From the NCBI RefSeq assembly GCF_000970795.1, contig NZ_KQ034029.1:289097-353096 (forward strand): a stretch of DNA of 64,000 bases, written 5' to 3'. A program made the position numbers and the translations under genes. The notes under the pieces are model-generated. The model saw only the letters and a list, made by a program, of their open reading frames with translations. It was not told the DNA's origin and searched no databases. This DNA comes from Bombilactobacillus mellifer (GTDB lineage Bacteria > Bacillota > Bacilli > Lactobacillales > Lactobacillaceae). Shown piece after piece: positions 304-45,360 of the stretch (within the stretch, counting starts at the first letter, position 1; each line of letters begins with the position of its first letter).

Positions 304-1461
304 TTAGGCTTTGGCATCGCGCTTTTGTTGATAGGTCGTCACAATTTGGTTCACTAACTCATTATCATCTAATCCTGTAATTTGTTGGACAACTTTTGGC
401 ACCGATTGGGTGCGTAATAATTCTTGTAAGTGGACACTTTCATTATCTTGCGGTTCATCAAATGTGAAAATCATCCCCACTGTATCCAATAAAACAGCAT
501 AGTCTAATGCACGCTCCTTTAATTCGCGGATCGGGCGAATAAACCGTTCATCAAAGCCTAATTTACGAATAGGAGTGCGCCCTACCCGTAAAATATCATC
601 CGAAATATATTTATTTTGAAATCGGCTCAAAATTTTGCGTTGGTAGTCTTGATGTGCTTGCGGATCAAACTGCCATTTAGCAATTAACAGGGCTCCCGTT
701 TCCTTCAGCGCACCTTGTACTTGTTGCAGGACTTTAGCATTTTGAATCGCCTCACCAATGGTTTGATAACCATAATAGGCTCCCGTATAAGCTACAGTTG
801 CATGACCAGTATTGACGGAAAATAGTTTGCGTTCAATATATGGTTCTAGATCGGGCACATATACCACCGACTGTAAATGCAGCTGCGGATTTTTCATTTG
901 TGATTCATCCACTACCCATTCTTTGAAGGGTTCCACGGAAACTGCCAAAGGATCCTCATGATGTTGAATCGGCACAATTCGATCTACTGCCGCATTTGGA
1001 AAACCAATATGGGCCTCAGCAAACTCTTGTTGTTGTAGATCTAAATGTTTATAGACTTCTTTTTTTAAAAATTGACTGCCGCCAATCATATTTTCGCAAG
1101 CAATAATGTCTATCGGCTGCGCATTAGCTGCAGTTTGCCGCGCAGCAATGCCTTGGGCAATTAAATCCGCAATAATAGGTAAAATTTTAGGACCAATAGC
1201 TGTGGTTACTAAATCGGTTTGCGCGATGGCCTGGACCACTGCTTGGGGTTGTTGTTGATTATTGAGGCCATCCACATGTTCCACATGAATCTGTTGCTGG
1301 CCGGGAGCTGCTAATTCAATATCATATTCATGCCGTTCATTGAGGGCATCAATGATTGTCGCATTCACATCCACAAAATGAATCGCAAAATTATTGCTGG
1401 CTAAAGTTTCTCCAATAAAGCCTCGGCCAATATTGCCGGCTCCAAAATGTACTGCGTCCAT
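304..1461 (-). CDS. mtlD: Mannitol-1-phosphate 5-dehydrogenase
   Basis: Oxidises mannitol-1-phosphate to fructose-6-phosphate with NAD in the cytoplasm, the step after PTS uptake. The N-terminus carries the family's dinucleotide-binding signature ([15 protein letters not shown]) and later the [11 protein letters not shown] segment typical of MtlD; 385 residues is the normal length. I chose the ATG at 1461 because an AAGGAAG ribosome site lies 9 bases upstream. An in-frame TTG at 1470 would sit on top of that site. The start follows the mtlF stop directly, so translation is probably coupled. It is the last gene of mtlA-mtlR-mtlF-mtlD. A paralogue lies at 39195-40376. Confidence 0.95.
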
Positions 1462-1462
1462 G

Positions 1463-1906
1463 TTATTCAACTTCCTTTAATAAATTAATTATTTCTGTCG
1501 GTGATTGTGCGTTCGACAATTTTTCAACGTTTTTAATATTACTACAAAACAATGCAATCGCTGATAATAACTGCAAATGTTCGCCATTTAAACCGGCAAT
1601 GCCAAAAACAATCGTGACTAATTTTTCCACAGAAGAATCAGTACTAAAATCAATTCCTTGCGGATATTGCACAATCGAAATTCCCGTCTTTTGAATATAT
1701 TGTTTACCTGCTTCGGTTCCATGCGGAATTGCAATAAAGTTACCCATATAGACAGAAACATCTTGATTGCGCGCCAACATCGAATCAATGTAGGGTTTTT
1801 GAACATAACCATTATCGACCAATAATTGTCCCGACAAGGTGATGGCTTCTTCTGGACTTTGTGCGGTTTGATTCAATCGAATTAGTGCTTGATCTAATCC
1901 CTTCAT
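1463..1906 (-). CDS. mtlF: Mannitol-specific PTS EIIA component
   Basis: Cytoplasmic phosphocarrier that passes phosphate from HPr to the EIIB domain of MtlA. It is a single EIIA domain of the mannitol/fructose type (147 residues); the phosphorylated histidine is His62 in the motif AIPHGT. It lies between mtlR (6-base gap) and mtlD (abutting) on the minus strand. The closest relative in the window is the EIIA at 40379-40807, which has the same histidine position. Confidence 0.95.
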
Positions 1907-1912
1907 TTAAAC

Positions 1913-4000
1913 TCACTTCCAATATTTTTCTTTAATCATCGTCCAAGTTAATTGAGCAATTAGTTGTTTCACCTGGGCCAATTGCCCCTGATCATAGACT
2001 AATAAATTATGTTGATCTTCGATAATCGAGCTGGAGATATTACCTAAAAGTTGCAAAATAAATTCACTGGTATTAACCGGTGCCAGCAGTAACAGACAAC
2101 GCCGCATGAGCAATGGTTGATAATCCATACCCGTAATTTCCAAGGGATGCGTTAATTCATAAATCGCAAATAACGGTTGTATGATCGCGGCATTGGTTGT
2201 ATGAAGCAACCCCAAATGGGATTGAGGAATCCCTACTGGGGCAGTTTGCTGCCTTTGGTACAAGGCTTGGGCAACCTGCGCGGCATCTTGGATAAAGCGT
2301 GGTCGTAGTCTTTGGGTTAATAAATTTAAAGTATCAGCTAAGTCAAAATGGCGATTATCGATCGTTTGAAGCTCGACGTTATTTAATAAATTCTGTGCCG
2401 TATCCACATCAATTAACAGTTGATTTAAAGCTAGTTGTGCATCTAAAACCATTTCGTTGCTGACTTTAGGGCTGACATTAACCTGTAATGTACCAAAGCG
2501 CTCTTGCAGATAATCTTTAATTTCCTGCACTTCATTCGTCAGCAATAAAGGTGACACTACTTTGTAAGGATATTGAAAACCAGGCAAGAAAATCGTGGAT
2601 AAAATTAAATCATAATCTTTTAAATTTAATTTTTTTAGATCAGCTATCCGCGAAACTTGATATTGACTGATTTCCGGAATTGTCATTTTTAAACGTTTTT
2701 CTAGAATTTTGACCGTTCCAATGCCATTGGCACAAACAATCAAGACACTGATGGGGGAATGCTGACGTTGTTGTTCAAACGCTGAAGCAAAATGCAATAG
2801 GACATAAGCTACTTCACTGGCTGATAATTGTTCGTTAAAAATTTCTTGCAAGCCTGCGGCTACATTTCGATATAACTGCGGATACTTCTCTATCACATTA
2901 TGCAACACGGGATTGTTAATTTCCGGTAATTTAGAGACTTGCCGCTGTAGAGCCGAACCTAAGTGCAACATTAAATCATCAAATAAAGAATCATCTTTTT
3001 GAAAATCATAGTGGAAAGCTTGCGAAACATATTGAATTAAACTGCGAACTTGATAAGACAGTTGAATGTCATAATCATCTAAAAACAAATTATTGGTTAT
3101 CGAAAAATTCATCCCGGCAATTTGTCCCGCCATAAACTCTACTTCTAAAAGTGTTACTTGTTGCTGAATCGCTTGACTAAATTGATTAAACAGCTGAATC
3201 GCTACATATTGGTATTTAAAAAGCATATCTTGATCCAGCGGCGGCAACTGTCGAATCGGATGTTGTTGTTCTATTCTTTGAGCCGATATAGTTAACATTA
3301 ATAAGAGTTGTTTTAACTGCTTATCCGACAAATGGGCAAATTCCGTTTTGGCTTGCAACTTAAGCGCTTGGCTGGCTTGGTGCAATAACTGTGGTTTTAA
3401 CAGATTAATAAAATACTGGGAAACGGTCGTACTCTTTTGTAAATCCGTCGGAGGCGCATCTAAAATCGCAAACAACTCGTATTCATTAATTTCACTGGCT
3501 AAAATTCCTCCGAGCACTCGCCGTAAGTGACTTTCGGCTCCCACTACGCGGAGTCCTTTGGCCTTCATCCGTTGTAATTGGATTTGATAATCCTGGAAAA
3601 TCTGTTCAATGGTTTGTAAATCTTGCATGATCGTGGTTTTACTAACTTGAAATTCATCCGCTAACGCCTGCATTGTCAAAAAATCGGCAGCTAACAGCAA
3701 CTTGCAAGCTACAGCGCTGCGTCGGGTGCGGGAAGTTTGAATAATACTTTGGTTATGAGCATTTTTCAAACCACGTTGTAACTGTTGCAACTGACTAGTC
3801 GCCCCTTGCAATTGATAGCGACCATTGGTTTTCGATAATTGAATATCAAAGTACTGCAAACTAGTTTCTAATTGAGCTAATTCCCGATAGACAGTCCGTT
3901 TGCTCACCTGTAAATTGGCCATGAGATCTTCCACACGCAGACCGGAAGGATTTTTTAACAGACTACGAGTAATTTCAATTTCCCGACTCGATAAATCCAT
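1913..4000 (-). CDS. mtlR: PRD-containing transcriptional activator MtlR
   Basis: Transcription factor controlled by PTS phosphorylation, expected to activate the mannitol operon. Two N-terminal helix-turn-helix segments (about residues 5-130) are followed by two PTS regulation domains (about 190-290 and 305-412, with histidines near 346 and 403). Then come an EIIB(Gat)-like domain with Cys423 in VLIVCANGIG (416-505) and an EIIA(Mtl)-like domain (about 545-695). The length of 695 residues fits the family. It is encoded inside the operon between mtlA and mtlF, as in several Firmicutes. A candidate target box lies upstream of mtlA at 5948-5969. Confidence 0.93.
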   Translation of the reverse strand: MDLSSREIEITRSLLKNPSGLRVEDLMANLQVSKRTVYRELAQLETSLQYFDIQLSKTNGRYQLQGATSQLQQLQRGLKNAHNQSIIQTSRTRRSAVACKLLLAADFLTMQALADEFQVSKTTIMQDLQTIEQIFQDYQIQLQRMKAKGLRVVGAESHLRRVLGGILASEINEYELFAILDAPPTDLQKSTTVSQYFINLLKPQLLHQASQALKLQAKTEFAHLSDKQLKQLLLMLTISAQRIEQQHPIRQLPPLDQDMLFKYQYVAIQLFNQFSQAIQQQVTLLEVEFMAGQIAGMNFSITNNLFLDDYDIQLSYQVRSLIQYVSQAFHYDFQKDDSLFDDLMLHLGSALQRQVSKLPEINNPVLHNVIEKYPQLYRNVAAGLQEIFNEQLSASEVAYVLLHFASAFEQQRQHSPISVLIVCANGIGTVKILEKRLKMTIPEISQYQVSRIADLKKLNLKDYDLILSTIFLPGFQYPYKVVSPLLLTNEVQEIKDYLQERFGTLQVNVSPKVSNEMVLDAQLALNQLLIDVDTAQNLLNNVELQTIDNRHFDLADTLNLLTQRLRPRFIQDAAQVAQALYQRQQTAPVGIPQSHLGLLHTTNAAIIQPLFAIYELTHPLEITGMDYQPLLMRRCLLLLAPVNTSEFILQLLGNISSSIIEDQHNLLVYDQGQLAQVKQLIAQLTWTMIKEKYWK

Positions 4001-4021
4001 ACCTCTACCCTTTTTTATTCA

Positions 4022-5836
4022 CTATGACTTGAACTGAGCCGCTAATTCTGGATATTCCGGAGCTTGAACAAGATCAGCGACAATTAACAATTGCGCCTTG
4101 GTTAAGTTGGCCGATAACTGCTGCGCCGTTTCGCGATTGGCAATAACTAAAATTGAATCCACATCTTGGATTTCGTTCACAGCTACTTTGCCCACAGCAA
4201 TCTTAGTAACTCCTGCCTTGTGTAATTCATTTTTAAATATCGATTGTGCCATTGTGGCTGAACCTAAATTATGCTCCTGATATACAAATTCAACAGTGTT
4301 AACTTTGGATAATTCTAATCCCGCGATCCCCATGGAACCTGCGGTGGCTGCTGTCGCTGCAGGGGAATTAGTAGGCTCGGGGGTAGCAGTAGCTGCTTGC
4401 TTCTTTTGTAAAATCTGCACAATTTGATCATATTTAGGTGAGTTTAAAAAATTATCCACCGCAACGTGCATGGCTCTAGGTGTTTTTTCCAACGCCCGTG
4501 TTGCTAATTCATTTTGTGTAACAACTAATAAACCTGTTTCATCTTGCAAATTACTAATCGACGTATTAGTGACGGGAATTTGTAAACCGGCTTTGTCCAC
4601 TTTGTCTCGTAAAATGGAGGCTCCCATCGCCGAGGAACCCATCCCGGCATCACAAGCAAAAATAATATGCTGGATTGCGGTTGATTTGGCTAAGGCTTCA
4701 GTAGTTATGGTCGTATCAGCAGCAGTTTTAGTAGCATTTTTCATCGCCGAAACTTGCGCTTGACTTGTTGCTAAATCCGTTGCGGGACTTTTATCACTTT
4801 TTAAAATCACCATGGAAATTACAAAAGAAATAACTGTCGCCACTACTACGCCACTTAATACCGCAATGTAGTTACCCAATCCTTTGGGAGTCATTAATAA
4901 AATAGAAATAATCGACCCCGGTGAAGGAGAGGCCTTTAAGCCCGCACCTAACAAATTAAAAGTAAAGGTTCCGGAAACCCCACCGGCTATCACTGACAAG
5001 AATAAGGCTGGTTTCATCAGTACATACGGAAAATAAATTTCATGAATTCCGCCAAAGAAATGAATAATGGCCGCTCCGGAAGCACTACTTTGAGCACTCC
5101 CTCTGCCAAAGAACATAAAGGCTAATAAAACACCCAGACCAGGACCAGGATTAGGCTCTAGTAAAAACAAAATTGATTTGCCCGCTTGGGCCGAAGCTTG
5201 AATTCCTAAAGGCGTTAAAATTCCTTGATTAATGGCGTTATTTAAAAATAAAATCTTAGCCGGTTCAATAAAAATGTTTACCAAAGGAATTAATTGATGT
5301 TTGATCAACCAATCGACGCCAACAGCTAAAATGGCTGATAAGCCGGAAACCACCGGGCCAATCCCAAAAAAGCCGATAATGGCCAAAATCATACCCAAAA
5401 TACCTGCGGAAAAATTATTGACCAACATTTCAAATCCCTTTTTCGTGCGCGGTTGAGCCCAGCTGTCAAACTTTTTAATTACCCAACCACCTAAAGGACC
5501 CATGGCCATCGCACCAATAAACATTGGAATATTGGAACCGACGATCACACCCATCGTTGCAATGGCTCCCACTACTCCACCACGATGCTGGTCCACCATG
5601 GATCCTCCAGTAAAACCAATTAAAAGTGGCAATAAATAAGTGACCATCGGCGTGATCATTTTGGCTAACTGTTCGTTAGGAAACCAGCCGCTTTTCATAA
5701 AAATAGCGGCAATTAATCCCCAGGCAATAAATGCTCCAATGTTGGGCATGACCATACCTGAGAGTTTACTACCCAAAAACTGCACTTTAGTTTTTAACGA
5801 GGATTTAGCAGATTTGGTTGTTGTAACCTCTTGCAT
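4022..5836 (-). CDS. mtlA: Mannitol-specific PTS EIICB transporter with an extra EIIB-like domain
   Basis: Membrane permease that imports mannitol and phosphorylates it to mannitol-1-phosphate. The EIIC part (about residues 20-345) has the substrate motifs GGIHEIYFPY and PNPGPG. The EIIB domain starts near 390 with phosphorylated Cys395 (FACDAGMGSSAMGASIL). After an Ala/Thr/Pro-rich linker (480-510) a second EIIB-like fold follows (about 513-600), in which the cysteine position is Gln520. This makes the protein 604 residues, against 478 for the paralogue at 42876-44312. I use the ATG at 5836, which has AAGGAG 8 bases upstream, rather than an in-frame TTG at 5872. The conserved NAINHG segment reads NAINQG here. 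Confidence 0.93.
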   Translation of the reverse strand: MQEVTTTKSAKSSLKTKVQFLGSKLSGMVMPNIGAFIAWGLIAAIFMKSGWFPNEQLAKMITPMVTYLLPLLIGFTGGSMVDQHRGGVVGAIATMGVIVGSNIPMFIGAMAMGPLGGWVIKKFDSWAQPRTKKGFEMLVNNFSAGILGMILAIIGFFGIGPVVSGLSAILAVGVDWLIKHQLIPLVNIFIEPAKILFLNNAINQGILTPLGIQASAQAGKSILFLLEPNPGPGLGVLLAFMFFGRGSAQSSASGAAIIHFFGGIHEIYFPYVLMKPALFLSVIAGGVSGTFTFNLLGAGLKASPSPGSIISILLMTPKGLGNYIAVLSGVVVATVISFVISMVILKSDKSPATDLATSQAQVSAMKNATKTAADTTITTEALAKSTAIQHIIFACDAGMGSSAMGASILRDKVDKAGLQIPVTNTSISNLQDETGLLVVTQNELATRALEKTPRAMHVAVDNFLNSPKYDQIVQILQKKQAATATPEPTNSPAATAATAGSMGIAGLELSKVNTVEFVYQEHNLGSATMAQSIFKNELHKAGVTKIAVGKVAVNEIQDVDSILVIANRETAQQLSANLTKAQLLIVADLVQAPEYPELAAQFKS

Positions 5837-5888
5837 ATTTAGTACTCCTTCCCTGCTGAAGCTATCATCCAACCACCCTTCAGCTGTT

Positions 5889-10120: not shown

Positions 10121-11203
10121 GTGATGGATTTAAAAAATAAATTAATGGATGCTGTCGTCAAAACAGCCGATGGCTATGATCATATGGAATTAAAACAAAT
10201 ACCTGTCCCTCAGCCACAAAAAGATCAGGTTTTAATTAAAACAGCTTATACTGGCATCTGTGGAACGGATATTCACACTTTTAAGGGTGAATATGCCAAT
10301 AGCGTGACACCGTTAGTTTTAGGTCATGAATTTGCCGGCAAAGTGGTGGCCGTAGGAACAGATGTCAAACAGATTCACGTTGGTGATCGCGTTACTAGTG
10401 AGACTACCTTGGCTACCTGTGGACATTGTGAATATTGTCAACGGCACGAATACAACCTCTGCCCGAATCGAACTGGGATTGGAACTAAAGCTAATGGTAG
10501 TATGGCTAATTATGTAATTTCTAGAGAAGAGAGTGTACACCTTTTACCAGATAATGTCAGTTATAAACTAGCTGCCATGTCGGAACCACTAGCTTGTTGT
10601 GTGCACGCGATGTATCAAATGACTCAAGTTAAGTTGCAAGACAAGATCTTGATCATTGGCCCGGGACCGATGGGGCTGCTCTCTTTACAAATTGCTAAAG
10701 AAATTGGTGCTTGGACCATTGTTTCGGGAATTAATAAAGATAACGACCGCTTAAAAATCGCCCAAAAACTGGGGGCCGACGCAATTGTAAATACCCAAGA
10801 AGAAGATTTGCAAAAAGTCGTCGATCAAGCTACTAATGGTCACGGTCTGGATAAAGTCTACGATTGTTCCGGATCCATTCAAGCGGTGAATGCTGCTTTG
10901 CCACTGTTAACTAAAGGTGGCACGATGCAACAAGTAGGTATTTTTGCCAAACCGGTTAATCCCCTAGATGAAAATATTATCATCCAACATGAACTCACCT
11001 ATCATGGCTCACGTTCGCAAAATCCATTAGATTGGCCCGTAGCTGTACATCTGGAAGCCAAAGGGGCGATCAATGCTGAGCAAATGATCACAAAGGTCTT
11101 TCCTTTAGATCATTGGCGGGATGCTTTTCAGGCCATGATGGACGGCAAAGAATTAAAAGTTCTCATCGCCTCTAATCCCGACGATGAAGATTTACAAAAT
11201 TAA
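10121..11203 (+). CDS. Zinc-dependent polyol-phosphate dehydrogenase, D-arabitol-phosphate dehydrogenase-like
   Basis: Medium-chain dehydrogenase of 360 residues. Catalytic zinc ligands are visible as Cys47 (GICGTDIH) and GHE at 68-70. The structural zinc site is the four-cysteine loop CGHCEYCQRHEYNLC. A Rossmann segment GPGPMGLL follows. As I recall it, the sequence resembles arabitol-phosphate dehydrogenase of enterococci (ITGICG, SETTxxTCG and FVQVGLFA-like segments), so it may make xylulose-5- or ribulose-5-phosphate. Galactitol-1-phosphate dehydrogenase is the alternative. GTG at 10121 has AGGAG 9 bases upstream; ATG at 10124 is possible. Last gene of the PTS operon, followed by a terminator. 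Confidence 0.85.
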   Translation: MMDLKNKLMDAVVKTADGYDHMELKQIPVPQPQKDQVLIKTAYTGICGTDIHTFKGEYANSVTPLVLGHEFAGKVVAVGTDVKQIHVGDRVTSETTLATCGHCEYCQRHEYNLCPNRTGIGTKANGSMANYVISREESVHLLPDNVSYKLAAMSEPLACCVHAMYQMTQVKLQDKILIIGPGPMGLLSLQIAKEIGAWTIVSGINKDNDRLKIAQKLGADAIVNTQEEDLQKVVDQATNGHGLDKVYDCSGSIQAVNAALPLLTKGGTMQQVGIFAKPVNPLDENIIIQHELTYHGSRSQNPLDWPVAVHLEAKGAINAEQMITKVFPLDHWRDAFQAMMDGKELKVLIASNPDDEDLQN

Positions 11204-11256
11204 TAAATTATAGCCTCCGTTGCTTCTTCTAGCAAAGCTGCTGTCAAATCTGCCAG

Positions 11257-11290
11257 CCCTAATTTACCGAATGGAAATTAGGGTTTTTTT
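11257..11290 (+). terminator. Terminator of the galactitol-family PTS operon
   Basis: Perfect nine-base arms (11257-11265 and 11275-11283) with a nine-base loop and seven T residues. Confidence 0.85.
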
Positions 11291-11547
11291 GCTGTGCTAT
11301 TAAATAAGCATTAGCGGCTAACACTGGAGCCAACAATTCAGAAATTAATCCAAACCAGAGCGCGCGCGTAATGTCAAGAAGCTACAATGGTCTGAAATCC
11401 TCCTAAATGAATAAAAAGCAGCTGCTACTCCGGTCTTCGACTGAAGTGCCATCACTGGCCACATTAGGAAAAATCAGGCCCGTAATCTGGGAACCTTTTG
11501 CGTTGTTGAAAGAAGTGGGCCTTATAAGCCCGGTTATTTTGAAAATT
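11291..11547. other. Intergenic region with a coding-like remnant
   Basis: No intact gene. On the minus strand an open stretch of about 40 codons (11381 down to 11262) reads like part of a hydrophobic protein (it contains WFGLISELLAPVLAANAYLI) but has no start codon and is preceded by a stop. It may be the tail of a decayed membrane-protein gene. Confidence 0.25.
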
Positions 11548-36264: not shown

Positions 36265-37515
36265 TTAAGTTGTTTTGGTTAGTTTAACATCGACACTTTG
36301 TAATTTACCATCCCGATAGAATTGAACTTTAATTGTATCACCTACGGCATAGCTATACAGTTTCGTATGCAAATCAGCAATATTTTTAATTTTCTTATCA
36401 TTGATGCTGACAATTACATCGTATTTGCGCAAACCGGCTTTCCGAGCCACGGAATCGGCAGAAGTCGAACCGACCAAGACGCCTTCTGTAACATTTTCAG
36501 GCAATTTGAGAATCGAACGTTGCTGCGAACTTGGCACTTGATCCAAATCAACTACTTTAATGCCTAATTGTGGTCGTTCAATTTTGCCATTTTGTACTAA
36601 TTGATTAATAATCTTGACCACTTCATTACTTGGAATGGCAAAACCCATCCCCTCTACAGAAGTCCCGTCCGTACTGGAAGCTAATTTCATAGAATTAATC
36701 CCAATAACTTGTCCCGCGACATTAACTAGTGGTCCGCCTGAATTACCAGGATTAATTGCGGTATCTGTTTGTAAGACCGTCGCCTGACCTGTAACTTGAC
36801 CGGAACTTTCATCAGTCGTATCAACTGTGCGGTTTTTAGCCGAGATAATTCCTTCGGTCACGGAAGTCGCGTATTTGCTGCCTAAAGGTGAACCAATGGC
36901 AATAACTGTTTCACCTGGATTGACGGCGTCTGAATTGCCAAAGTGGGCGACTGATTTGACTTTATCTGCGGCAATCGATAAAACTGCTAAATCCGTAATA
37001 GCATCAGTTCCGACTTTTTTAGCTGAGACCTTATTGCCGTCACTTAAAATAACTTCTAATTTTTCTGAACCAGCTACAACATGATTATTAGTTACTACAT
37101 AAGCATGGCCATCTTGCTTACTGTAAATTAAACCCGAACCTTCACTAGATTCTTGCAATTTACTTTTATTTGAACTCCCCGAATTATTGTCGCTATTGCC
37201 ATTGCCATATAGACTGCCAAATAATGCACTTAAACTATCGTCACTTTTTTGTTCCCGCTGATAATTTACTACTGAAACGACTGAACCTTTGACTTTTTTA
37301 AAAGCTGTCGTCATTTGATTATGTGATTTGACAGTAACATTACTGATTTGAGTAGTCCCAGCCTTCCCTGAACCATTAGTAACTTGGCCGGCCGGGCTAG
37401 GGTTGCTGTTCCCCCAGTGACTAAACGCAAAATAGCCGATGCCGGTCCCTAATAGTGCTGAGACGAGCGCCACCACGACTATTTTCCATAAGTCCATGTG
37501 ATTTTGATTATTCAA
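36265..37515 (-). CDS. htrA: HtrA-type serine protease
   Basis: Membrane-anchored surface protease and chaperone for misfolded exported proteins. One N-terminal transmembrane segment (about 10-33) is followed by a Ser/Asn-rich linker. The trypsin-like domain has catalytic His145 (NNHVV), Asp175 (TDLAVL) and Ser259 (NPGNSGGPL), and a PDZ domain covers about 315-410. The total is 416 residues. The start is TTG at 37515, supported by AAGGAGG 9 bases upstream; the first in-frame ATG (37497) is too far from it. It lies between the second polyol operon and rlmH. Confidence 0.95.
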   Translation of the reverse strand: MNNQNHMDLWKIVVVALVSALLGTGIGYFAFSHWGNSNPSPAGQVTNGSGKAGTTQISNVTVKSHNQMTTAFKKVKGSVVSVVNYQREQKSDDSLSALFGSLYGNGNSDNNSGSSNKSKLQESSEGSGLIYSKQDGHAYVVTNNHVVAGSEKLEVILSDGNKVSAKKVGTDAITDLAVLSIAADKVKSVAHFGNSDAVNPGETVIAIGSPLGSKYATSVTEGIISAKNRTVDTTDESSGQVTGQATVLQTDTAINPGNSGGPLVNVAGQVIGINSMKLASSTDGTSVEGMGFAIPSNEVVKIINQLVQNGKIERPQLGIKVVDLDQVPSSQQRSILKLPENVTEGVLVGSTSADSVARKAGLRKYDVIVSINDKKIKNIADLHTKLYSYAVGDTIKVQFYRDGKLQSVDVKLTKTT

Positions 37516-37895: not shown

Positions 37896-37933
37896 AAAAA
37901 AAGGAATTAAATTACCCAACATAATTTAATTCC
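37896..37933 (-). terminator. Terminator of the second mtl-like operon
   Basis: Perfect twelve-base arms (37903-37914 and 37922-37933) with a seven-base loop and seven T residues on the minus strand, about 50 bases after the hexuloisomerase gene. Confidence 0.9.
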
Positions 37934-37986
37934 TTTCACTTCAATCCATTATAAAAATCTATTTTCTCTGATTTTCTGTTTCCTAA

Positions 37987-38544
37987 TTATTCCAGATTAG
38001 CATGGCGTTGATCCAATTGTTTTTGCGACAAATGTTTAATTTTTTTTAAATCGACTACCAAGCTGTCATAAAGTAAGAAAGTTAATTGTTCAAAAGCTGA
38101 ACCGTTAGGTTGAATAGATATCTTTTGTGGGACATCGTGCGCCCGCGAAGACGCTCCTGGTAGCTTCACCACGACATCAGCTAATTCTCCTAATACACTT
38201 TGTGGATGAATGGTAATTAAGGCGACCCGCGCTTGAGCCTGTTTAGCTATTTGAGCAGCATTAATCATCCCCTGAGTAAGCCCAGAACCGGAATTAATGA
38301 TTAACAAATCTGTGGAACCAATCGCTGGGGTAGTGGATTCTCCCACAAAATAATCAGTAAATCCTAAATGAACCAGCCGATTGGCAAAAGCGCGGGCAAC
38401 AAAGCCCGACCGCCCAGCACCAGCAATGAAAATGCGATCTGCCTGAAGAATTTCTTGCTCTAAAACTTGAACTTCCTGCGCTTTTACAGCAGTGGCAGCA
38501 GTTAATAATTCTTGTAAAATAGTTGTTAAATTTTCATAATGCAT
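37987..38544 (-). CDS. hxlB: 6-phospho-3-hexuloisomerase (SIS domain)
   Basis: Cytoplasmic isomerase that interconverts arabino-3-hexulose-6-phosphate and fructose-6-phosphate. A single SIS domain fills the 185 residues. Seen are the phosphate-binding segments GAGRSGFVARAFANRLVHLGF and INSGSG(L)TQ and the later NGSAFEQLTFLLYDSLV typical of PHI. AGGAGC lies just upstream of the ATG. It follows the synthase gene by 9 bases, forming the HPS/PHI pair of the ribulose monophosphate pathway. Here the pair is the tail of a mannitol-type PTS operon. Confidence 0.92.
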   Translation of the reverse strand: MHYENLTTILQELLTAATAVKAQEVQVLEQEILQADRIFIAGAGRSGFVARAFANRLVHLGFTDYFVGESTTPAIGSTDLLIINSGSGLTQGMINAAQIAKQAQARVALITIHPQSVLGELADVVVKLPGASSRAHDVPQKISIQPNGSAFEQLTFLLYDSLVVDLKKIKHLSQKQLDQRHANLE

Positions 38545-38553
38545 AATCTGCTC

Positions 38554-39180
38554 CTAGTTTAAAGCCTGTTTAATCGCATGGGCTGCCTGTGTTGGATTCG
38601 CCGCTTTACAAATACCCGAACCCACGATCACTACTTCCGGTTGTAAAGCCACATATGAGGCGATAGTTTGACTGTTAATGCCTCCAGCTACTGAAATCGC
38701 AATATTCGACGCAAATTGTTGGACGACTTTTAAGTCGGCTAAGGGCCGACGGCCCACTGCTTGTTGGTCTGCACCAGTATGGACGGAGAGCATATGTGCT
38801 CCCATCTTTTCCAATTCGCTGACCCGTGTGGCTAAATCAGGACAGCCAATCAAATCTACAACGGTTTTTTTACCCCGGGCGTTGGCTGCTTGAATACAAC
38901 TTTGAATAGTTAAATTATCTGTAATGCTGACCACCGTCACGTAATCTGCTCCCGCCTCAAATCCTAAATTGGCTTCGAATGCTCCACCATCGACAATTTT
39001 TTCATCCGCTAAAATTTCTTTAGTGGGAAAGCGCTGTTTGAATTGTCGTACAGCAGACATTCCCTCTCGGATGACAAGCGGTGTGCCCACTTCAATGATA
39101 TCGACATCATTTTCGATTTGATGAATTAAATTAATCCCTTCACTCAAAGTAACTTCATCTAAAGCCACTTGCAATTTCAT
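38554..39180 (-). CDS. hxlA: 3-hexulose-6-phosphate synthase
   Basis: Enzyme of the orotidine-monophosphate-decarboxylase fold that joins formaldehyde and ribulose-5-phosphate to 3-hexulose-6-phosphate, or runs the reverse cleavage. Its 208 residues show LQVALD at the start and the active-site D-x-K-x-x-D as ADEKIVDGG, then SVHTGADQQ and the phosphate-binding AGGIN and VIVGSGI. The relatives that decarboxylate 3-keto-gulonate-6-phosphate share the fold; the adjacent PHI gene favours HPS. It lies 14 bases after the mtlD-like gene on the minus strand. Confidence 0.9.
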   Translation of the reverse strand: MKLQVALDEVTLSEGINLIHQIENDVDIIEVGTPLVIREGMSAVRQFKQRFPTKEILADEKIVDGGAFEANLGFEAGADYVTVVSITDNLTIQSCIQAANARGKKTVVDLIGCPDLATRVSELEKMGAHMLSVHTGADQQAVGRRPLADLKVVQQFASNIAISVAGGINSQTIASYVALQPEVVIVGSGICKAANPTQAAHAIKQALN

Positions 39181-39194
39181 GATTTTACCCCTTT

Positions 39195-40376
39195 TCAGAT
39201 TTCTCCATCTCGATGCTGAGCCAATAACTGCCGTTGTTGATCATAAGATTTCATAATTTTTTTGAAGGCCGGACTAGCAGCAGAAATCGCTGTAAAATGT
39301 TCAATAGTTTGTGGTAACCCATGGTCTGTTAAATATTTTTGTAAAATGACACATTGTTCATCTTGCGGATTAAAGAATAACAGCGCCGCGGCAATACCTT
39401 TTAACAAAAGTTCATTGGGTAAGCCATATTGTTCTAACTGCACTGCTGGCGCCACCAAACGATCTTGTGGTCCCAATTTGCGAATAGGCGAACGACAAAC
39501 CCGGGCAATCGGATCTTTAATGCCTGGTGTTTGATAGCGGTCAATGGCAAAGTCAATATAATGGTCCAAATCCGCCGCCGTAAAATCATATTTGCGTACG
39601 AGCAATCTAGCAGATTCTTCCATCGTTTGACGCACTTGTTGAACTAGATCTGCGCGGGCAAAAACATCTTGAATAATGTTATAACCTAATACGTAACCTA
39701 TATAACCCGCCCAAGCATGACCGCAATTAATAATATATAATTTACGTTCTAAATATTTTTGCAGATTTTGGGTATATTCTGCCCCTACAATGGGAGGAGT
39801 TTTGGGATCTACCAATTGGGAAGATTCAATGGCTAATTCAAAGCTATCCCCAATGGCCACACTATGCTGGCCGGCCGTGACATAGTCTAAAACCATCCGA
39901 TCGACAACCGTATTCGCAAAAGCAGCGACCGCATCTAAATCAATTAATTCCTGCTGAGTATCTGCTTTTAAAATTTCGTCATGTAAAATTTGACCATTCA
40001 TAAATGCATTTTCACAAGCCAAGATATTTAAGCGGGACTTTTGCAAATGTTGCCGCTGAACCAATCCTTTTAAAATTACAGGGGCAATTTGTGCTAAATT
40101 ATCGGCCCAAACACTAGTAGTAATAAGATCAGCAGATACGATAGCTTCAATTAGGGCCTGAGAATCTTGCGTGGCAGACAAGGCTGTGACGTGATCAATG
40201 GTCACTTTTTGATAAGCATGATTAATTAAATAAAGATCATAGCCCTGGTGCGCATTAATCTGATTAACTAGTGCCGTATTTACATCGACCATGACGATGT
40301 CATAACCGGAATCATGTAAAAGTTGTCCAATAAAACCACGTCCAATACTCCCAGCACCAAAATGAACTGCTTTCAT
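39195..40376 (-). CDS. Mannitol-1-phosphate dehydrogenase-family polyol-phosphate dehydrogenase
   Basis: Long-chain polyol dehydrogenase of 393 residues, paralogue of mtlD at 304-1461. It has AVHFGAGSIGRGFIGQ at the N-terminus and the RSPIRKLGPQDRLV segment in the C-terminal domain, where the catalytic lysine lies. The last third (YGLPNELLLKGIAAAL) differs strongly from the first copy. GGAGG precedes the ATG. It is the fourth gene of the mtl-like operon and is followed by HPS and PHI. Mannitol-1-phosphate to fructose-6-phosphate is the default reaction, but the substrate may be another hexitol or pentitol phosphate. Confidence 0.88.
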   Translation of the reverse strand: MKAVHFGAGSIGRGFIGQLLHDSGYDIVMVDVNTALVNQINAHQGYDLYLINHAYQKVTIDHVTALSATQDSQALIEAIVSADLITTSVWADNLAQIAPVILKGLVQRQHLQKSRLNILACENAFMNGQILHDEILKADTQQELIDLDAVAAFANTVVDRMVLDYVTAGQHSVAIGDSFELAIESSQLVDPKTPPIVGAEYTQNLQKYLERKLYIINCGHAWAGYIGYVLGYNIIQDVFARADLVQQVRQTMEESARLLVRKYDFTAADLDHYIDFAIDRYQTPGIKDPIARVCRSPIRKLGPQDRLVAPAVQLEQYGLPNELLLKGIAAALLFFNPQDEQCVILQKYLTDHGLPQTIEHFTAISAASPAFKKIMKSYDQQRQLLAQHRDGEI

Positions 40377-40378
40377 GG

Positions 40379-40807
40379 TTAAATTACCTCCTGAAACAAA
40401 GTGAGAATCTCATCCTTGGATTGCGTATGACTTAAAAGTTCAATATTTCTTAGATCCGAACAAACCTGGGCAATTTTTCCTAAAATGGCTAAATGTTCAT
40501 TATTTTTACCGGCAATCCCGAAAACTAAATAAACTCGTTCACCATCAAATTCCACTCCTGCGGGTACTTGCACTAGAGAAATTCCCGATGCTAAAATTTT
40601 ATCTTCAGAAGTCACAAGCCCATGCGGAATTGCAACATTATTGCCGATATAAGTTGAGACATCTGCTTCACGTAATAACATATCTTCCACATAAGCATTC
40701 ACAACATAATGATTGCGTACTAAGATCTGACCTGCTAAAGTAATAGCTTCATTTTTAGACTGGCACACTTGGGCTAAACAAATATTATCTTTTGGGAAAA
40801 TCTGCAT
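40379..40807 (-). CDS. PTS EIIA component, mannitol type (second copy)
   Basis: Phosphocarrier of 142 residues, paralogue of mtlF at 1463-1906, with phosphorylated His62 in NVAIPHGL. It feeds the EIICB at 42876-44312. GAGGTGATAAG precedes the ATG. The next gene starts two bases after its stop, so translation is likely coupled. Both copies sit between the regulator and the dehydrogenase, showing a shared ancestral operon. Confidence 0.93.
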   Translation of the reverse strand: MQIFPKDNICLAQVCQSKNEAITLAGQILVRNHYVVNAYVEDMLLREADVSTYIGNNVAIPHGLVTSEDKILASGISLVQVPAGVEFDGERVYLVFGIAGKNNEHLAILGKIAQVCSDLRNIELLSHTQSKDEILTLFQEVI

Positions 40808-40816
40808 CTTATCACC

Positions 40817-42844
40817 TCAAAATATTTCCTCAAAACTGCGTTTAAAGGTCTCCGACAAATAGGCTCTAATTTGTTCCTTATTAGCATTTTCGATCGCTGC
40901 TTGCGTCTTGTTACTAGTGGAAAGATGAATGATAACTTTGCTCAAAACCGAAGTCATACTGGCTACCATCATCGGTCCATGGCAAAAAGTCAAAATTTGC
41001 AGCTTATTTAAAGCACAACAATCAGACTGATTTTGAATCTTCAAAATAAAAATTTTACTATTACGCTTGGTTTGTAATGGACAATTTAAAATAGCGATAT
41101 TTTGTTCTGGTAAACGATAAAAATTTTTGGACCAATTGTAGCTTAATTGTTGGACTTCTTGGCTATTCAATCCGGCATGGCGCTGTAAGTAACTAATGAT
41201 TTGAGTTTGTAAACGCTCTCCTTGAGTAATAGTGATCTTACTGACTTCTAACTCCCGTAGTAATTTCGTTACGCTTTTTAAGATTGTAGTCATCTCGGTT
41301 AAAATGGTTAAAGCATCGCGGCGATCCGGGTTTTTTTGCATCGGGTGTTGCGTGTGACTCAAGCTGCGATATTTATGCGCTTCTACTTTTCTTTCAATTA
41401 GCTCTTTTTCCACGGTACTTAATAATGGTGAAACTCGTAGCAAATCATGTCCTTTAATTTCCAGAGGAACTGTCGATAAAATGAGATCAAACTGTGTTAA
41501 ATCCAAATGCTCCATCTCAATAATAGAAGTGACTTTTTTAACCGTTATTTCCGGAATTTCTCGTTCGACACGACTAGCGAGCATTTTAGCAGAACCCATG
41601 CCACTCGAACAGACAATCAAAACGTTGAAAGAACGTTGAACCAATTTATCCAGGGCAATCGCAAAATACATAACCAAATAACCAATTTCATCGTCAGGAA
41701 AATACTGCGCTCCAAATAATTGTCGTGTCGCCGCGGCCACGATCGTATAAATAGTGGAATAGTTGGCTTGAATCTCCTTAGTTAAAGGATTACGAATGGT
41801 GATGCCTGATTCAATGCGATTAACGGCCTTATTTAAATGACGCTGCAGTCCTCTTAATAAATCATTATCGTTACTTAAAGAAATGCCCAAGCGCTCTTCC
41901 ACTTTTTGAACCAGTAAGTCTGACTTAATCAGCATTGCTTGTCCATCCCAAGAAGTAACGAGATCTTTTTCGCCAATATAAATTTGAATTAACCACCGTA
42001 AATAATCCTGATAGTTATGATCCAGATGACCGTGCACTAAGTTTTGTTGGAGCAAAGTATCAATCTGCTGTGTCTTTTTTGTCAGTGGTGCTATTGATTC
42101 TTGAAAAATAATAGCTTGCTGTTGTTGCCAACTGTTGAACCATAAACCCACTAAAATTGCAAATTCAATTAATTCACTGTCGCTTACTTGAACTTGTTCT
42201 TGTTGCAGAATCGGCATTACCACCGTATAGACATGGGTAAAAAGTTTCCCGAAAGTTTGACTCATTAAATTCAGAAAAGAATTATCAGCAGGTCCTTGCC
42301 CTTGCAACCAATGTAATAATTCGGTGGTTTGACTATCTTTCACGAGCAAATTCATCATGGCAATCTGGCGCTGATAAATAAAGCCCTTCACAAATAAACC
42401 TTCACTTTTTTTACTTATAAGTTGTAAATTCCAGTGCTGGAGTTGTATGCGTACTTGAGGTAAATCTTTTTTGACCGTAGACACAGAAACATTTAAGGCT
42501 AAGGCAATTGTTTTTTGCTTGATGTAATCGGAACTCACTAACAAATAGAGCATTGTCAGATCAATCCGCTCCGTAACTAGATAATCTTGGACCACTTTAT
42601 TTTGGGAAATATTTCGGATAAGTTGAGCAATTACCGACTGTTTGCCTTGAACAATTAAACCTCGTTGCGGAATCGTAATTAACTCTAAATTTTGTTTTTC
42701 AATAACTTGCCGTACAGTCGCTAGTTCACGATAAACCGTACGCTCACTTAACTGAAGCTGACAGGCTATCTGGTGAATAGTTAATGCCTGCCGAGCGTTA
42801 AGCAGTAGCAGAAGAATTTTTTTCAGTCTGCTTGATAAATACAT
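40817..42844 (-). CDS. PRD-containing transcriptional regulator, MtlR-like (second copy)
   Basis: PTS-controlled regulator of 675 residues, paralogue of the MtlR at 1913-4000. Order: two helix-turn-helix segments (about 8-130), PRD1 (about 190-290), PRD2 (300-405), an EIIB-like domain with Cys412 (NVLIVCSSGMGSAK) and a weakly conserved EIIA-like domain (about 525-675). The first PRD2 histidine is present (His336, LQRHLNKA). The second, His403 in the first copy, is replaced by tyrosine (VMYFAIAL). It lies between the EIICB and EIIA genes and probably activates this operon with altered phospho-control. Confidence 0.9.
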   Translation of the reverse strand: MYLSSRLKKILLLLLNARQALTIHQIACQLQLSERTVYRELATVRQVIEKQNLELITIPQRGLIVQGKQSVIAQLIRNISQNKVVQDYLVTERIDLTMLYLLVSSDYIKQKTIALALNVSVSTVKKDLPQVRIQLQHWNLQLISKKSEGLFVKGFIYQRQIAMMNLLVKDSQTTELLHWLQGQGPADNSFLNLMSQTFGKLFTHVYTVVMPILQQEQVQVSDSELIEFAILVGLWFNSWQQQQAIIFQESIAPLTKKTQQIDTLLQQNLVHGHLDHNYQDYLRWLIQIYIGEKDLVTSWDGQAMLIKSDLLVQKVEERLGISLSNDNDLLRGLQRHLNKAVNRIESGITIRNPLTKEIQANYSTIYTIVAAATRQLFGAQYFPDDEIGYLVMYFAIALDKLVQRSFNVLIVCSSGMGSAKMLASRVEREIPEITVKKVTSIIEMEHLDLTQFDLILSTVPLEIKGHDLLRVSPLLSTVEKELIERKVEAHKYRSLSHTQHPMQKNPDRRDALTILTEMTTILKSVTKLLRELEVSKITITQGERLQTQIISYLQRHAGLNSQEVQQLSYNWSKNFYRLPEQNIAILNCPLQTKRNSKIFILKIQNQSDCCALNKLQILTFCHGPMMVASMTSVLSKVIIHLSTSNKTQAAIENANKEQIRAYLSETFKRSFEEIF

Positions 42845-42875
42845 CCTGTCACACCTGCATTCTGCTCAAATCTAT

Positions 42876-44312
42876 CTACTGGCTGTCTTGAATCATTTGA
42901 ATAATTTGCTCATATTCTTCGTTATCTAAATAATTTTTAATTGGAACCACAGGGACCTGTGACTGCTGTTTATAGAGATCTTTTACACGTTCGAATAACG
43001 TATCACTAGTGATAATTAAATCAGCATCATTGGGAATATTATCCAACGCCACATTTTGAACGTGCACGTTTGGTAGATGTGCTTTTTGAACTTTAGCCGA
43101 TAACATTGACGCTCCCATGGCACTAGAACCCATCCCCGCATCACACGCAATAATGATGTTTTGGATCGGGTGACTTGCAGCCACCTTAGCCAGCGTGGAA
43201 CTAGACGAAAAACTGGTTGGAGAGCTTGCGGAATTGGAGTCAGGCATATCTGTTTTGGAAGATAGCGTGACTTGACTAAGTTTTAAGAAGAAACTGACTA
43301 CTAAAAAAGAAACAACTAGGGCCACAAAGTAACAAATAATATTCACCAGCATGGCATTTTTCGGGGACATCATCACTAAGGCCAAAAAACTACCTGGTGA
43401 AACGGCTCCCACTGTGCCGCCATGGAAAATTTGGGCCAGCCATAGAGCGGCTATATTGCCAAACATCGGGCCCAAAATTGTAATAGGTTTTATAAGCGCA
43501 TAGGGAAAAGCAATTTCCCCAATTCCGCCAAAAAACATAATTAATGCTGAAGCTGGAGCAGTACGTTTGGCCACACCCTGACCAAACAAAGAAAACGCAA
43601 GCAATAGTCCCGTCCATGTTCCACCATTAGCTTCTACCATGAATAAAATAGATTTACCCGTTGCGGCTACTTGTTGCAAACCAATGGGTACCATAATGCC
43701 ATGATTAATCGCATTATTGAGAAAAAGTACTTGCGCCGGTTGTACTAAAATACTAGTTAAAGGAATTAAATTGCGCCCCATTAACCATTGCACTCCTGCT
43801 GATAAAAGCGCCAAAATACCGGAAAACAGTGGTTCCACAAAGAGAAAACCTAAAATCAAAATAAGAAAACCGATAATTCCTAAAGAAAAATTATCTACTA
43901 ACATTTCTAAACCCGGTTTAATATAACCGGCAATTAATTTGTCAAATTTTTTAATCAACCAGGCAGCTAAAGGGCCCATTACCATGCCACCAATTAACAT
44001 AGTAATATGTGAACCAATGACCACCCCCATTGTGGCTAAAGCACCAATCGCACCACCACGTTTGCCATAAACATTAAAACCGCCCACATAGCCAATTAAA
44101 ACGGGCATTAAATATTTTAATAAAGGTGCTACAAGGCCATTTAATCGGGCATTGGGGAGCCAACCCGTAGGAATAAAAAAGGCTGCTAATAGTCCCCAAG
44201 CAATAAAGACACCGATATTGGGCATGACCATTGCACTCAAGAAACCGCCCATTTCTTGAATTTTTACTCGGAGTGAATTCAGAGATAATTTTGCATTACT
44301 ATTATTTTGCAT
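42876..44312 (-). CDS. PTS EIICB permease, mannitol family (second copy, altered substrate motifs)
   Basis: Membrane permease of 478 residues: EIIC (about 20-345), a Ser-rich linker (350-373) and one EIIB domain with Cys390 (IIIACDAGMGSSAMGASML). It is the same family as mtlA at 4022-5836 and lacks that protein's second EIIB-like domain. Substrate-region motifs differ: GGIHEIYFP is GGIGEIAFP here, and the PNPGPG segment is NGGTWTG. A sugar alcohol other than mannitol is therefore plausible. The ATG at 44312 is preferred over an in-frame TTG at 44327. First gene of the operon. Confidence 0.9.
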   Translation of the reverse strand: MQNNSNAKLSLNSLRVKIQEMGGFLSAMVMPNIGVFIAWGLLAAFFIPTGWLPNARLNGLVAPLLKYLMPVLIGYVGGFNVYGKRGGAIGALATMGVVIGSHITMLIGGMVMGPLAAWLIKKFDKLIAGYIKPGLEMLVDNFSLGIIGFLILILGFLFVEPLFSGILALLSAGVQWLMGRNLIPLTSILVQPAQVLFLNNAINHGIMVPIGLQQVAATGKSILFMVEANGGTWTGLLLAFSLFGQGVAKRTAPASALIMFFGGIGEIAFPYALIKPITILGPMFGNIAALWLAQIFHGGTVGAVSPGSFLALVMMSPKNAMLVNIICYFVALVVSFLVVSFFLKLSQVTLSSKTDMPDSNSASSPTSFSSSSTLAKVAASHPIQNIIIACDAGMGSSAMGASMLSAKVQKAHLPNVHVQNVALDNIPNDADLIITSDTLFERVKDLYKQQSQVPVVPIKNYLDNEEYEQIIQMIQDSQ

Positions 44313-44335
44313 CGTCCTTTCCCCCAATAGTTTTT

Positions 44336-44349
44336 TATAAGCGCTTACA
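44336..44349 (-). promoter_or_regulatory. cre site of the second mtl-like operon
   Basis: On the minus strand TGTAAGCGCTTATA matches the cre consensus at 13 of 14 positions. It lies directly downstream of the predicted -10 box, about 25 bases before the start codon. Confidence 0.7.
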
Positions 44350-44355
44350 TTTCTT

Positions 44356-44384
44356 ATAATAGTGAGCTGTTCCTGGAAATGCTA
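44356..44384 (-). promoter_or_regulatory. Predicted activator-dependent promoter of the second mtl-like operon
   Basis: On the minus strand TATTAT (44356-44361) is preceded at 17 bases by a poor -35 box, TAGCAT (44379-44384). A weak -35 with an upstream palindrome suits activation by the MtlR-like protein. Confidence 0.45.
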
Positions 44385-44393
44385 CCCTTGCTA

Positions 44394-44440
44394 GAGCCAG
44401 CTTTGGCAAAACCAAATTGCCAAAACTAGCTCATTTTTTT
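44394..44440. promoter_or_regulatory. Long palindrome upstream of the second mtl-like promoter
   Basis: Arms of 15 bases (44394-44408 and 44418-44432, two mismatches) with core TTTGGCA/TGCCAAA. On the plus strand it is followed by seven T residues and could act as a terminator, but no plus-strand gene ends here. Its place upstream of the -35 box suggests an activator site, as for the box near mtlA. Confidence 0.45.
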
Positions 44441-44495
44441 GTTAGACTAAATAATTAGTAACTTATTTCCCATTTTCAATGCAAATCAGTCCACA

Positions 44496-44522
44496 ATAAA
44501 AAGCAATCCTGAAAGGATTGCT
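44496..44522 (-). terminator. Terminator of the walRK operon
   Basis: Nine-base arms (44502-44510 and 44514-44522) and a T-rich tail on the minus strand, after the yycJ stop codon. Confidence 0.85.
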
Positions 44523-44559
44523 TTACTAAGAAATAATAATGCACTCAAGCTGCCCTAGC

Positions 44560-45360
44560 TCAAATAAGTTGCAGTTTTGTAGCTTGTTGGGGCTTAGTAT
44601 CATACAGTTGAAAATCGTGTCCCACATTAAAGTCTTGTGCTTGCAACATTTGTGTTACCGTCTGCCGAGCCAAAGTAGGGTAATTATTATGGGGACTCAA
44701 ATGGCCTAAATAAATGTTTTTGGTACGGCGCCCAATCACATCTGCCAAGACTTCGGCGCCGTCAGCATTTGACAAATGCCCTTCATCTCCTAAAATCCGT
44801 TGCTTCAATGGCCAAGGGTAAGGCCCATGGCGTAACATTGCTAAATCATGATTACATTCTATCAAAATACCATCGGCATTTTTAATAATATATTTCACCC
44901 GCTCGGAGACATAACCGGTATCAGTTAAATCGACGAATGATTTACCGTTATAATGAATATTATAAAATTGCGGATCAGCTGCATCATGAGAAACACTAAA
45001 ACTTTCAATATCCATTTCCCCTAAACTGATGACAGAATTAGGCGGAAAAATATGTTTTTGAGCCGGATCAATCGGTCCAATTTTATGAGCCATTGCCGAC
45101 CAGGTTTTTTGATTAGCATAAACATCTAATTGATAACGTCTGGCTAACACTCCGACTCCTTGCACATGATCACTATGTTCATGAGTCACTAACAAAGCCT
45201 GTACTTGAGCGAGATCTTGACCAATACTAGCCATTAATTGTGCGATTTTCTTACCGGACAAACCTGCATCAATCAATATTTTTTGATGCGGCGTTTGGCA
45301 ATATAAACAATTGCCACTGCTGCTACTAGCCAAGACACTGACTTGTAGCGTATCATTCAT
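44560..45360 (-). CDS. yycJ: Metallo-beta-lactamase-fold hydrolase YycJ/WalJ
   Basis: Cytoplasmic metallohydrolase of 266 residues, last gene of the WalRK operon. The metal motif is THEHSDH (His60, His62, Asp64, His65). The N-terminus reads VLASSSSGNCLY, typical of this family, and the downstream ECNHD segment adds further ligands. YycJ proteins are linked to DNA or cell-wall homeostasis; a 5'-exonuclease role has been proposed in Bacillus. Its start overlaps the yycI stop by eight bases. Confidence 0.93.
   Translation of the reverse strand: MNDTLQVSVLASSSSGNCLYCQTPHQKILIDAGLSGKKIAQLMASIGQDLAQVQALLVTHEHSDHVQGVGVLARRYQLDVYANQKTWSAMAHKIGPIDPAQKHIFPPNSVISLGEMDIESFSVSHDAADPQFYNIHYNGKSFVDLTDTGYVSERVKYIIKNADGILIECNHDLAMLRHGPYPWPLKQRILGDEGHLSNADGAEVLADVIGRRTKNIYLGHLSPHNNYPTLARQTVTQMLQAQDFNVGHDFQLYDTKPQQATKLQLI

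Follow-up and report, generated by a model that had tools for sequence, protein, structure and literature searches.

Why would a member of the Lactobacillaceae carry, at the end of a mannitol-type phosphotransferase system (PTS) operon, the formaldehyde-fixing pair 3-hexulose-6-phosphate synthase (HPS) and 6-phospho-3-hexuloisomerase (PHI)? The question is raised by positions 37987-44312 of a 64,000-nucleotide stretch of Bombilactobacillus mellifer (contig NZ_KQ034029.1, positions 289,097 to 353,096; the window in what follows), where six intact open reading frames (ORFs) lie on the minus strand in the order EIICB, MtlR-like regulator, EIIA, MtlD-like dehydrogenase (MtlD2), HPS, and PHI. The module is very likely real, with HPS and PHI forming part of the PTS pathway. 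As to its function, we favor, with a probability of roughly 0.4, the catabolism of a non-mannitol polyol, in which PHI and HPS would be the entry of a hexulose 6-phosphate into central metabolism.

The operon is compact, with gaps of 31, 9, 2, 14, and 9 bp between its successive genes. The first codes for the mannitol-type PTS component EIICB (EIICB2, 42876-44312), which starts with the ATG at 44312 after an AAAGGA ribosome site, in an ORF that can be extended to a TTG at 44327. It is followed by the MtlR-like regulator (40817-42844), with helix-turn-helix, PRD, and PTS EIIB-like regions (Pfam PRD, HTH_11, and Mga, plus a weak PTS_IIB match), by EIIA (PTS_EIIA_2, 40379-40807; PF00359, 117 bits), and by MtlD2 (39195-40376), a polyol-phosphate dehydrogenase that belongs to the polyol-specific long-chain family and is distinct from MtlD. 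Last come the members of the HPS family (38554-39180) and of the PHI family (37987-38544), the latter a SIS domain protein. Upstream of EIICB, on the same strand at 44336-44349, there is a cre-like site for CcpA-dependent catabolite control, TGTAAGCGCTTATA, which is the single match to the strict cre pattern TGWAARCGYTWNYW on both strands of the 64-kb window; the promoter scan at the operon gave a score no better than that of shuffled sequence. An intrinsic terminator (AAAGGAATTAAATTA-loop-TAATTTAATTCCTTTTTTT and a T run; minus strand, about 37897-37937) lies 3' of PHI, and its hairpin of -17.2 kcal/mol (z -5.7) was not equaled in any of 200 shuffles. An earlier note on this DNA had described the six genes as ending with HPS and PHI before one common terminator, and the first four as repeating the order of the mannitol operon at 304-5872. 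Both descriptions hold.

Conservation was assessed by searching genome contigs with MtlD2 alone and then checking the relatives for HPS and PHI neighbors; as the dehydrogenase was the only query, these neighbors were not selected for. Clear relatives accompanied by both genes were found in Vagococcus acidifermentans, four Paenibacillus genomes, Propionispora, Enterococcus florum, and Glycomyces tenuis, while a ninth match was discarded as a short chance alignment. Among 398 genomes of the Lactobacillaceae, three further relatives of MtlD2 were recovered (G231, G331, and G242). HPS and PHI are thus in the same cluster in all 12 genomes of the MtlD2 clade, window included, four of them Lactobacillaceae. 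The earlier note had proposed looking for the same six-gene order elsewhere; it is identical in V. acidifermentans, where the MtlR in the equivalent position shares 38% identity with that of the window, and the other three Lactobacillaceae have MtlD2, HPS, and PHI together. No additional MtlD2 appeared in 29 genomes of the Vagococcus family or in 30 of the G231 genus, so the module seems to be sporadic. A plasmid search with MtlD2 gave one match at 36% identity, in an unannotated Arthrobacter record. The closest relative outside the clade (G1058, 46% identity) belongs to an mtlR-EIICBA-mtlD operon that keeps the GIHE motif, and no HPS or PHI gene was found within the 19 kb read around this dehydrogenase.

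The PTS-linked pairs fall into three groups. Group A combines a mannitol-type EII with MtlD2, HPS, and PHI (the window, Vagococcus, G231, G331, and G242), the last three members carrying a DeoR regulator. Beside two of these operons there are HAD phosphatase genes, one divergent in Vagococcus (L013, 3185-3868), whose product is near the hexitol phosphatase and beta-phosphoglucomutase models and below their cut-offs, and one next to the DeoR gene of G231 (L009, 3640-4302). Group B (loci L014-L020, in Paenibacillus, Propionispora, Enterococcus, and Glycomyces) usually has the order GntR regulator, SorE-like sorbitol-6-phosphate dehydrogenase of the short-chain dehydrogenase/reductase (SDR) type, mannose-type PTS, MtlD2, DhaL, DhaK, HPS, and PHI. 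Group C consists of a mannose-type PTS with HPS and PHI, in many cases joined by a small membrane protein and by a DeoR gene, at eight loci of Lactobacillaceae (L062, L065, L068, L079, L081, L082, L083, and L084), where none of the dehydrogenase types looked for turned up, an arrangement that looks like a hitherto uncharacterized sugar operon; at L084, an ORF named by eye as transaldolase/fructose-6-phosphate-aldolase-like is located nearby (10713-11393). Most of the remaining HPS/PHI pairs of the family are in other contexts, 13 of the loci having a gene that by sequence inspection is HxlR-like, and these HxlR-linked pairs of lactobacilli probably serve in formaldehyde detoxification. A control search of 14 genomes recovered Bacillus subtilis, as expected. 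There is also a third, very divergent HPS/PHI lineage with 30 to 36% identity to the window proteins (L077, 3287-4455; L087, 5778-6940; L088, 5343-6505), which adjoins a sugar-kinase-like and a permease-like gene, both named by eye.

The phylogenies argue that this association is functional. In the HPS tree, a single branch (SH-aLRT 94) separates 25 HxlR-type or other pairs from all members of groups A, B, and C, and the PHI tree gives the same picture, the exceptions being one row on the HxlR side (L053) and the divergent proteins of a third mannitol-type operon of this genome. These trees are quick ones, and their inner support is modest. In both of them, the window and Vagococcus join group B, and the other three members of group A join group C. 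The MtlD2 proteins form one clade (support of 91/90 with the outgroup included). One dehydrogenase clade therefore occurs with two HPS/PHI lineages, a pattern that speaks for functional coupling and against a shared accident. A chance neighborhood was ruled out by this pairing and by the association in 12 of 12 genomes.

Both proteins of the pair look like intact enzymes. HPS scores 260 bits against the NCBIfam equivalog TIGR03128 (cut-off, 200) and PHI 215.5 bits against TIGR03127 (cut-off, 160). HPS, whose closest solved structure is 3f4w, retains the motifs D59-x-K61-x-x-D64 and H134-x-G-x-D138, and PHI retains GAGRSG and the C-terminal HANLE; with all catalytic positions kept, degraded copies were ruled out. 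The window HPS deviates at two otherwise near-invariant positions (15 and 182) and the window PHI at none. As a whole, the PTS-linked HPS proteins show fixed differences from the HxlR type at positions 7, 66, 72, 76, 88, 91, and 183, and there is no HxlR regulator in or beside the window operon.

The transporter and the dehydrogenase both suggest a substrate different from that of the mannitol operon. EIICB2 stays below the cut-offs of the profiles NF011663 (513.5 bits; cut-off, 589) and TIGR00851 (389; cut-off, 468). The glutamate of the GIHE motif of MtlA-type EIIC proteins is important for mannitol binding. The full motif, GGIHExYFPY, is altered in all five EIICB2 relatives and kept, together with H264, in EIICB1 of the mannitol operon and EIICB3 of the third operon. 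Group A reads GGI(G/A)E at this place (GGIGEIAFPY in the window) and has the additional changes H264M and Q209H; a search of solved structures gave no match to the EIIC part. MtlD2 has both Mannitol_dh domains (PF01232 and PF08125) and the catalytic K212, N217, and H220, and it stays below the cut-offs of all curated MtlD equivalogs (at best 342.3 bits; cut-off, 356), with MtlD1 of the same genome reaching 649.5 bits against a cut-off of 357. Comparison with MtlD1 and with two mannitol-1-phosphate dehydrogenases of known structure revealed four changes common to the whole MtlD2 clade, E176G, W181L, T218C, and Y285G, with T218C falling between the catalytic Asn and His. The outgroup protein of G1058 also has C218 and L181 but not G176 or G285. 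Because the EIIC motif and the MtlD2 pocket are changed and the MtlD cut-offs are missed, mannitol is unlikely to be the main substrate, a conclusion drawn from sequence that we hold as likely; a polyol other than mannitol, as the earlier note implied, is probably the substrate.

How HPS and PHI would serve such a pathway can be outlined from their chemistry. PHI catalyzes the reversible conversion of fructose 6-phosphate to D-arabino-3-hexulose 6-phosphate by way of a 2,3-enediol, and HPS links 3-hexulose 6-phosphate with ribulose 5-phosphate and formaldehyde, in an equilibrium that favors condensation. Judging from their families, EIICB and EIIA would import and phosphorylate the polyol, and MtlD2, given its family chemistry and altered pocket, would yield a hexulose 6-phosphate by oxidizing the phosphorylated polyol. 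Two products would be simplest: 3-hexulose 6-phosphate itself, and the D-allulose 6-phosphate that allitol or altritol would give, which fits because it has an enediol in common with fructose 6-phosphate. PHI would then convert this product to or from fructose 6-phosphate through the enediol shared with 3-hexulose 6-phosphate, which HPS would tie to ribulose 5-phosphate plus formaldehyde. HPS may act mainly in a reversible manner, by scrambling C2 through retro-aldol and aldol steps or by recapturing formaldehyde, and not as a net splitter. We put this specific chemistry forward tentatively.

Since group C has a mannose-type PTS with HPS and PHI and no dehydrogenase was seen there, the pair appears to be a catabolic entry point for a PTS product, and the gene content of this group suggests that HPS/PHI can take such a product directly as substrate. 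In groups A and B, MtlD2 would make from a polyol the same hexulose phosphate as the group C PTS delivers, or a similar one. Some observations weigh against a catabolic polyol operon of this kind. If PHI suffices by itself, HPS is explained only by the supposed retro-aldol scrambling or formaldehyde recapture, and the SDR and DhaK/DhaL proteins of group B have no role in the scheme. The branches of the window proteins are long (0.83 for HPS and 0.81 for PHI), which leaves room for some change of function. MtlD2 is missing in the six congeners, and its use may therefore be confined to particular strains.

A change of function is the starting point of the first alternative, in which the HPS and PHI homologs have as substrate a sugar phosphate that differs in chain length or stereochemistry (a pentulose, a heptulose, or a branched ketose), so that their RuMP names would be misleading. 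The PTS-linked pairs are indeed a lineage of their own with the fixed differences listed above, and in a sister operon of this genome, a PTS and a dehydrogenase of the same kind stand beside a divergent PHI-like protein and an RPE/AlsE-like protein; in a relative, an operon of this type is followed by a transketolase-like ORF (unscored). The presence of DhaK/DhaL in group B operons could be read in the same way. However, HPS and PHI score above their equivalog cut-offs with the catalytic motifs preserved, and we consider a changed function unlikely.

The earlier note had proposed that the polyol is taken up, oxidized, and split into a pentulose phosphate and a C1 unit. In the second alternative, which follows this proposal, 3-hexulose 6-phosphate, formed directly or via PHI, would undergo net cleavage by HPS into formaldehyde and ribulose 5-phosphate, which would feed the phosphoketolase/pentose phosphate route. 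Every gene needed sits in one operon, the catalytic motifs of HPS are intact, and in archaea HPS and PHI do run toward pentose synthesis. Uptake and oxidation in one pathway with HPS/PHI fit our results well, as the pair shares an operon with the PTS and dehydrogenase genes and is coupled to them in 12 of 12 genomes. The split into a pentulose phosphate and a C1 unit fares worse: the HPS equilibrium lies on the side of condensation, formaldehyde is a toxic product, HPS is the only formaldehyde-consuming gene seen in the window operon and in the related operons read, and some relatives have just the PTS with HPS and PHI. Net splitting thus appears rather doubtful.

The third alternative is formaldehyde capture, either from a substrate that releases it, such as a hydroxymethyl-branched polyol, or by a detoxification unit that hitchhikes with the operon. 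Condensation is the thermodynamically favored direction, and the pair has a detoxification role in B. subtilis and probably in the HxlR-linked lactobacilli. Against it, the window has no HxlR gene nearby and an HPS/PHI lineage separate from the HxlR type, the pairing with MtlD2 is maintained across phyla, and the operon codes for no formaldehyde-releasing enzyme other than HPS, all of which makes capture quite improbable. A spare mannitol operon whose HPS and PHI make pentose phosphates from fructose 6-phosphate, the latter step also raised by the earlier note, would account for the shared gene order and is very improbable, given the absence of GIHE from EIIC, the altered MtlD2 pocket, the MtlD cut-offs missed, and the presence in the genome of glucose-6-phosphate dehydrogenase (zwf) and transketolase (tkt), because of which a need for pentose phosphates is no argument.

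The genomic setting suggests that the module arrived as a unit. It lies between two genes that we take, from their sequence and position, to be yycJ (44560-45360) and htrA (36265-37515). The operon begins after a terminator-like hairpin (44500-44524, minus strand) that belongs to yycJ, the gene preceding it. The six other genomes of the genus that were searched contain no MtlD2 match at an E value of 1e-80, and in all six yycJ directly adjoins htrA. Since the site is contiguous and empty there, the cassette (37897-44524, minus strand) can be considered an insertion. Its G+C content, 0.38 to 0.42, is unremarkable against the rest of the window. The operon is probably a horizontally acquired, self-contained cassette with its own control and stop signals.

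If the catabolic polyol reading is correct, HPS/PHI would have a fourth role beside methylotrophy, formaldehyde detoxification, and archaeal pentose synthesis, and a set of genes whose present names refer to mannitol or methylotrophy would receive functions. We can imagine, with some reserve, a widespread pathway of non-methylotrophs for polyols (and sugars) through 3-hexulose 6-phosphate, in which HPS/PHI are catabolic and work by C1 splitting or, by way of bound or transient formaldehyde, by epimerization of a hexulose phosphate. The conserved PTS operon makes it testable why non-methylotrophs keep a PTS-linked HPS/PHI lineage. The parts of the operon all come from known families, and their combination and likely role were not found described: the earlier note knew of no such polyol pathway, and we found no description of a PTS polyol operon with HPS/PHI in the open-access literature (PMC). 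In the part of a Lacticaseibacillus casei transcriptome paper that concerns the pair, HxlB/HxlA are drawn as leading from fructose 6-phosphate to ribulose 5-phosphate, with no link to a polyol there (PMC7716342).

Among known systems, the closest is the mannitol operon mtlA-mtlR-mtlF-mtlD of the same genome, with which the window operon shares its first four gene families, the PRD regulator, and the K-N-H dehydrogenase. The differences are GIGE in place of GIHE, the altered MtlD2 pocket, the added HPS and PHI, and an EIICB2 with one EIIB and without an extended C terminus. The EIICB of the mannitol operon (4022-5872) has 616 amino acids and a long C-terminal extension past EIIB, and the model matches it in two stretches. 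With hxlR-hxlA-hxlB of the B. subtilis type, the operon shares adjacent HPS and PHI genes with intact motifs, but it has no HxlR, belongs to the PTS-linked lineage, and includes a cre-like site and PTS genes. The L-sorbose and sorbitol PTS operons (sor and gut) resemble group B in their mannose-type PTS and SorE-like dehydrogenase; MtlD2, DhaK/DhaL, and HPS/PHI are extra in group B, and both the SDR and the mannose-type PTS are absent from the window operon. In the D-arabitol PTS operon atlABCD of Bacillus methanolicus, with the PTS AtlABC, dehydrogenases, and a BglG-type regulator (PMC6685057, where Enterococcus avium and Listeria are also cited), polyol uptake by a PTS is likewise followed by a polyol-phosphate dehydrogenase; HPS/PHI are not listed in the part of that source describing the operon, so the distinction is one of description, not of sequence.

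Last, in the D-allose/D-allulose 6-phosphate route, as in our proposal, an off-pathway hexulose 6-phosphate would reach fructose 6-phosphate, there through AlsE and here through PHI/HPS, the window operon having no AlsE or RPE homolog. The third mannitol-type operon of the genome (L012, 7757-13030; contig C3, about 59.7-65.0 kb) contains a DeoR gene, an RPE/AlsE-like barrel protein, a PHI-like protein (divergent, with GRVL instead of GRSG), MtlD3, EIIA, and an EIICB with GIHE. A relative in G208 (L095, 5510-10742) has the same set and then the transketolase-like ORF, named by eye (3447-5441). In the third operon, an AlsE/RPE-like gene takes the place of HPS, and this arrangement supports the general design that we propose.

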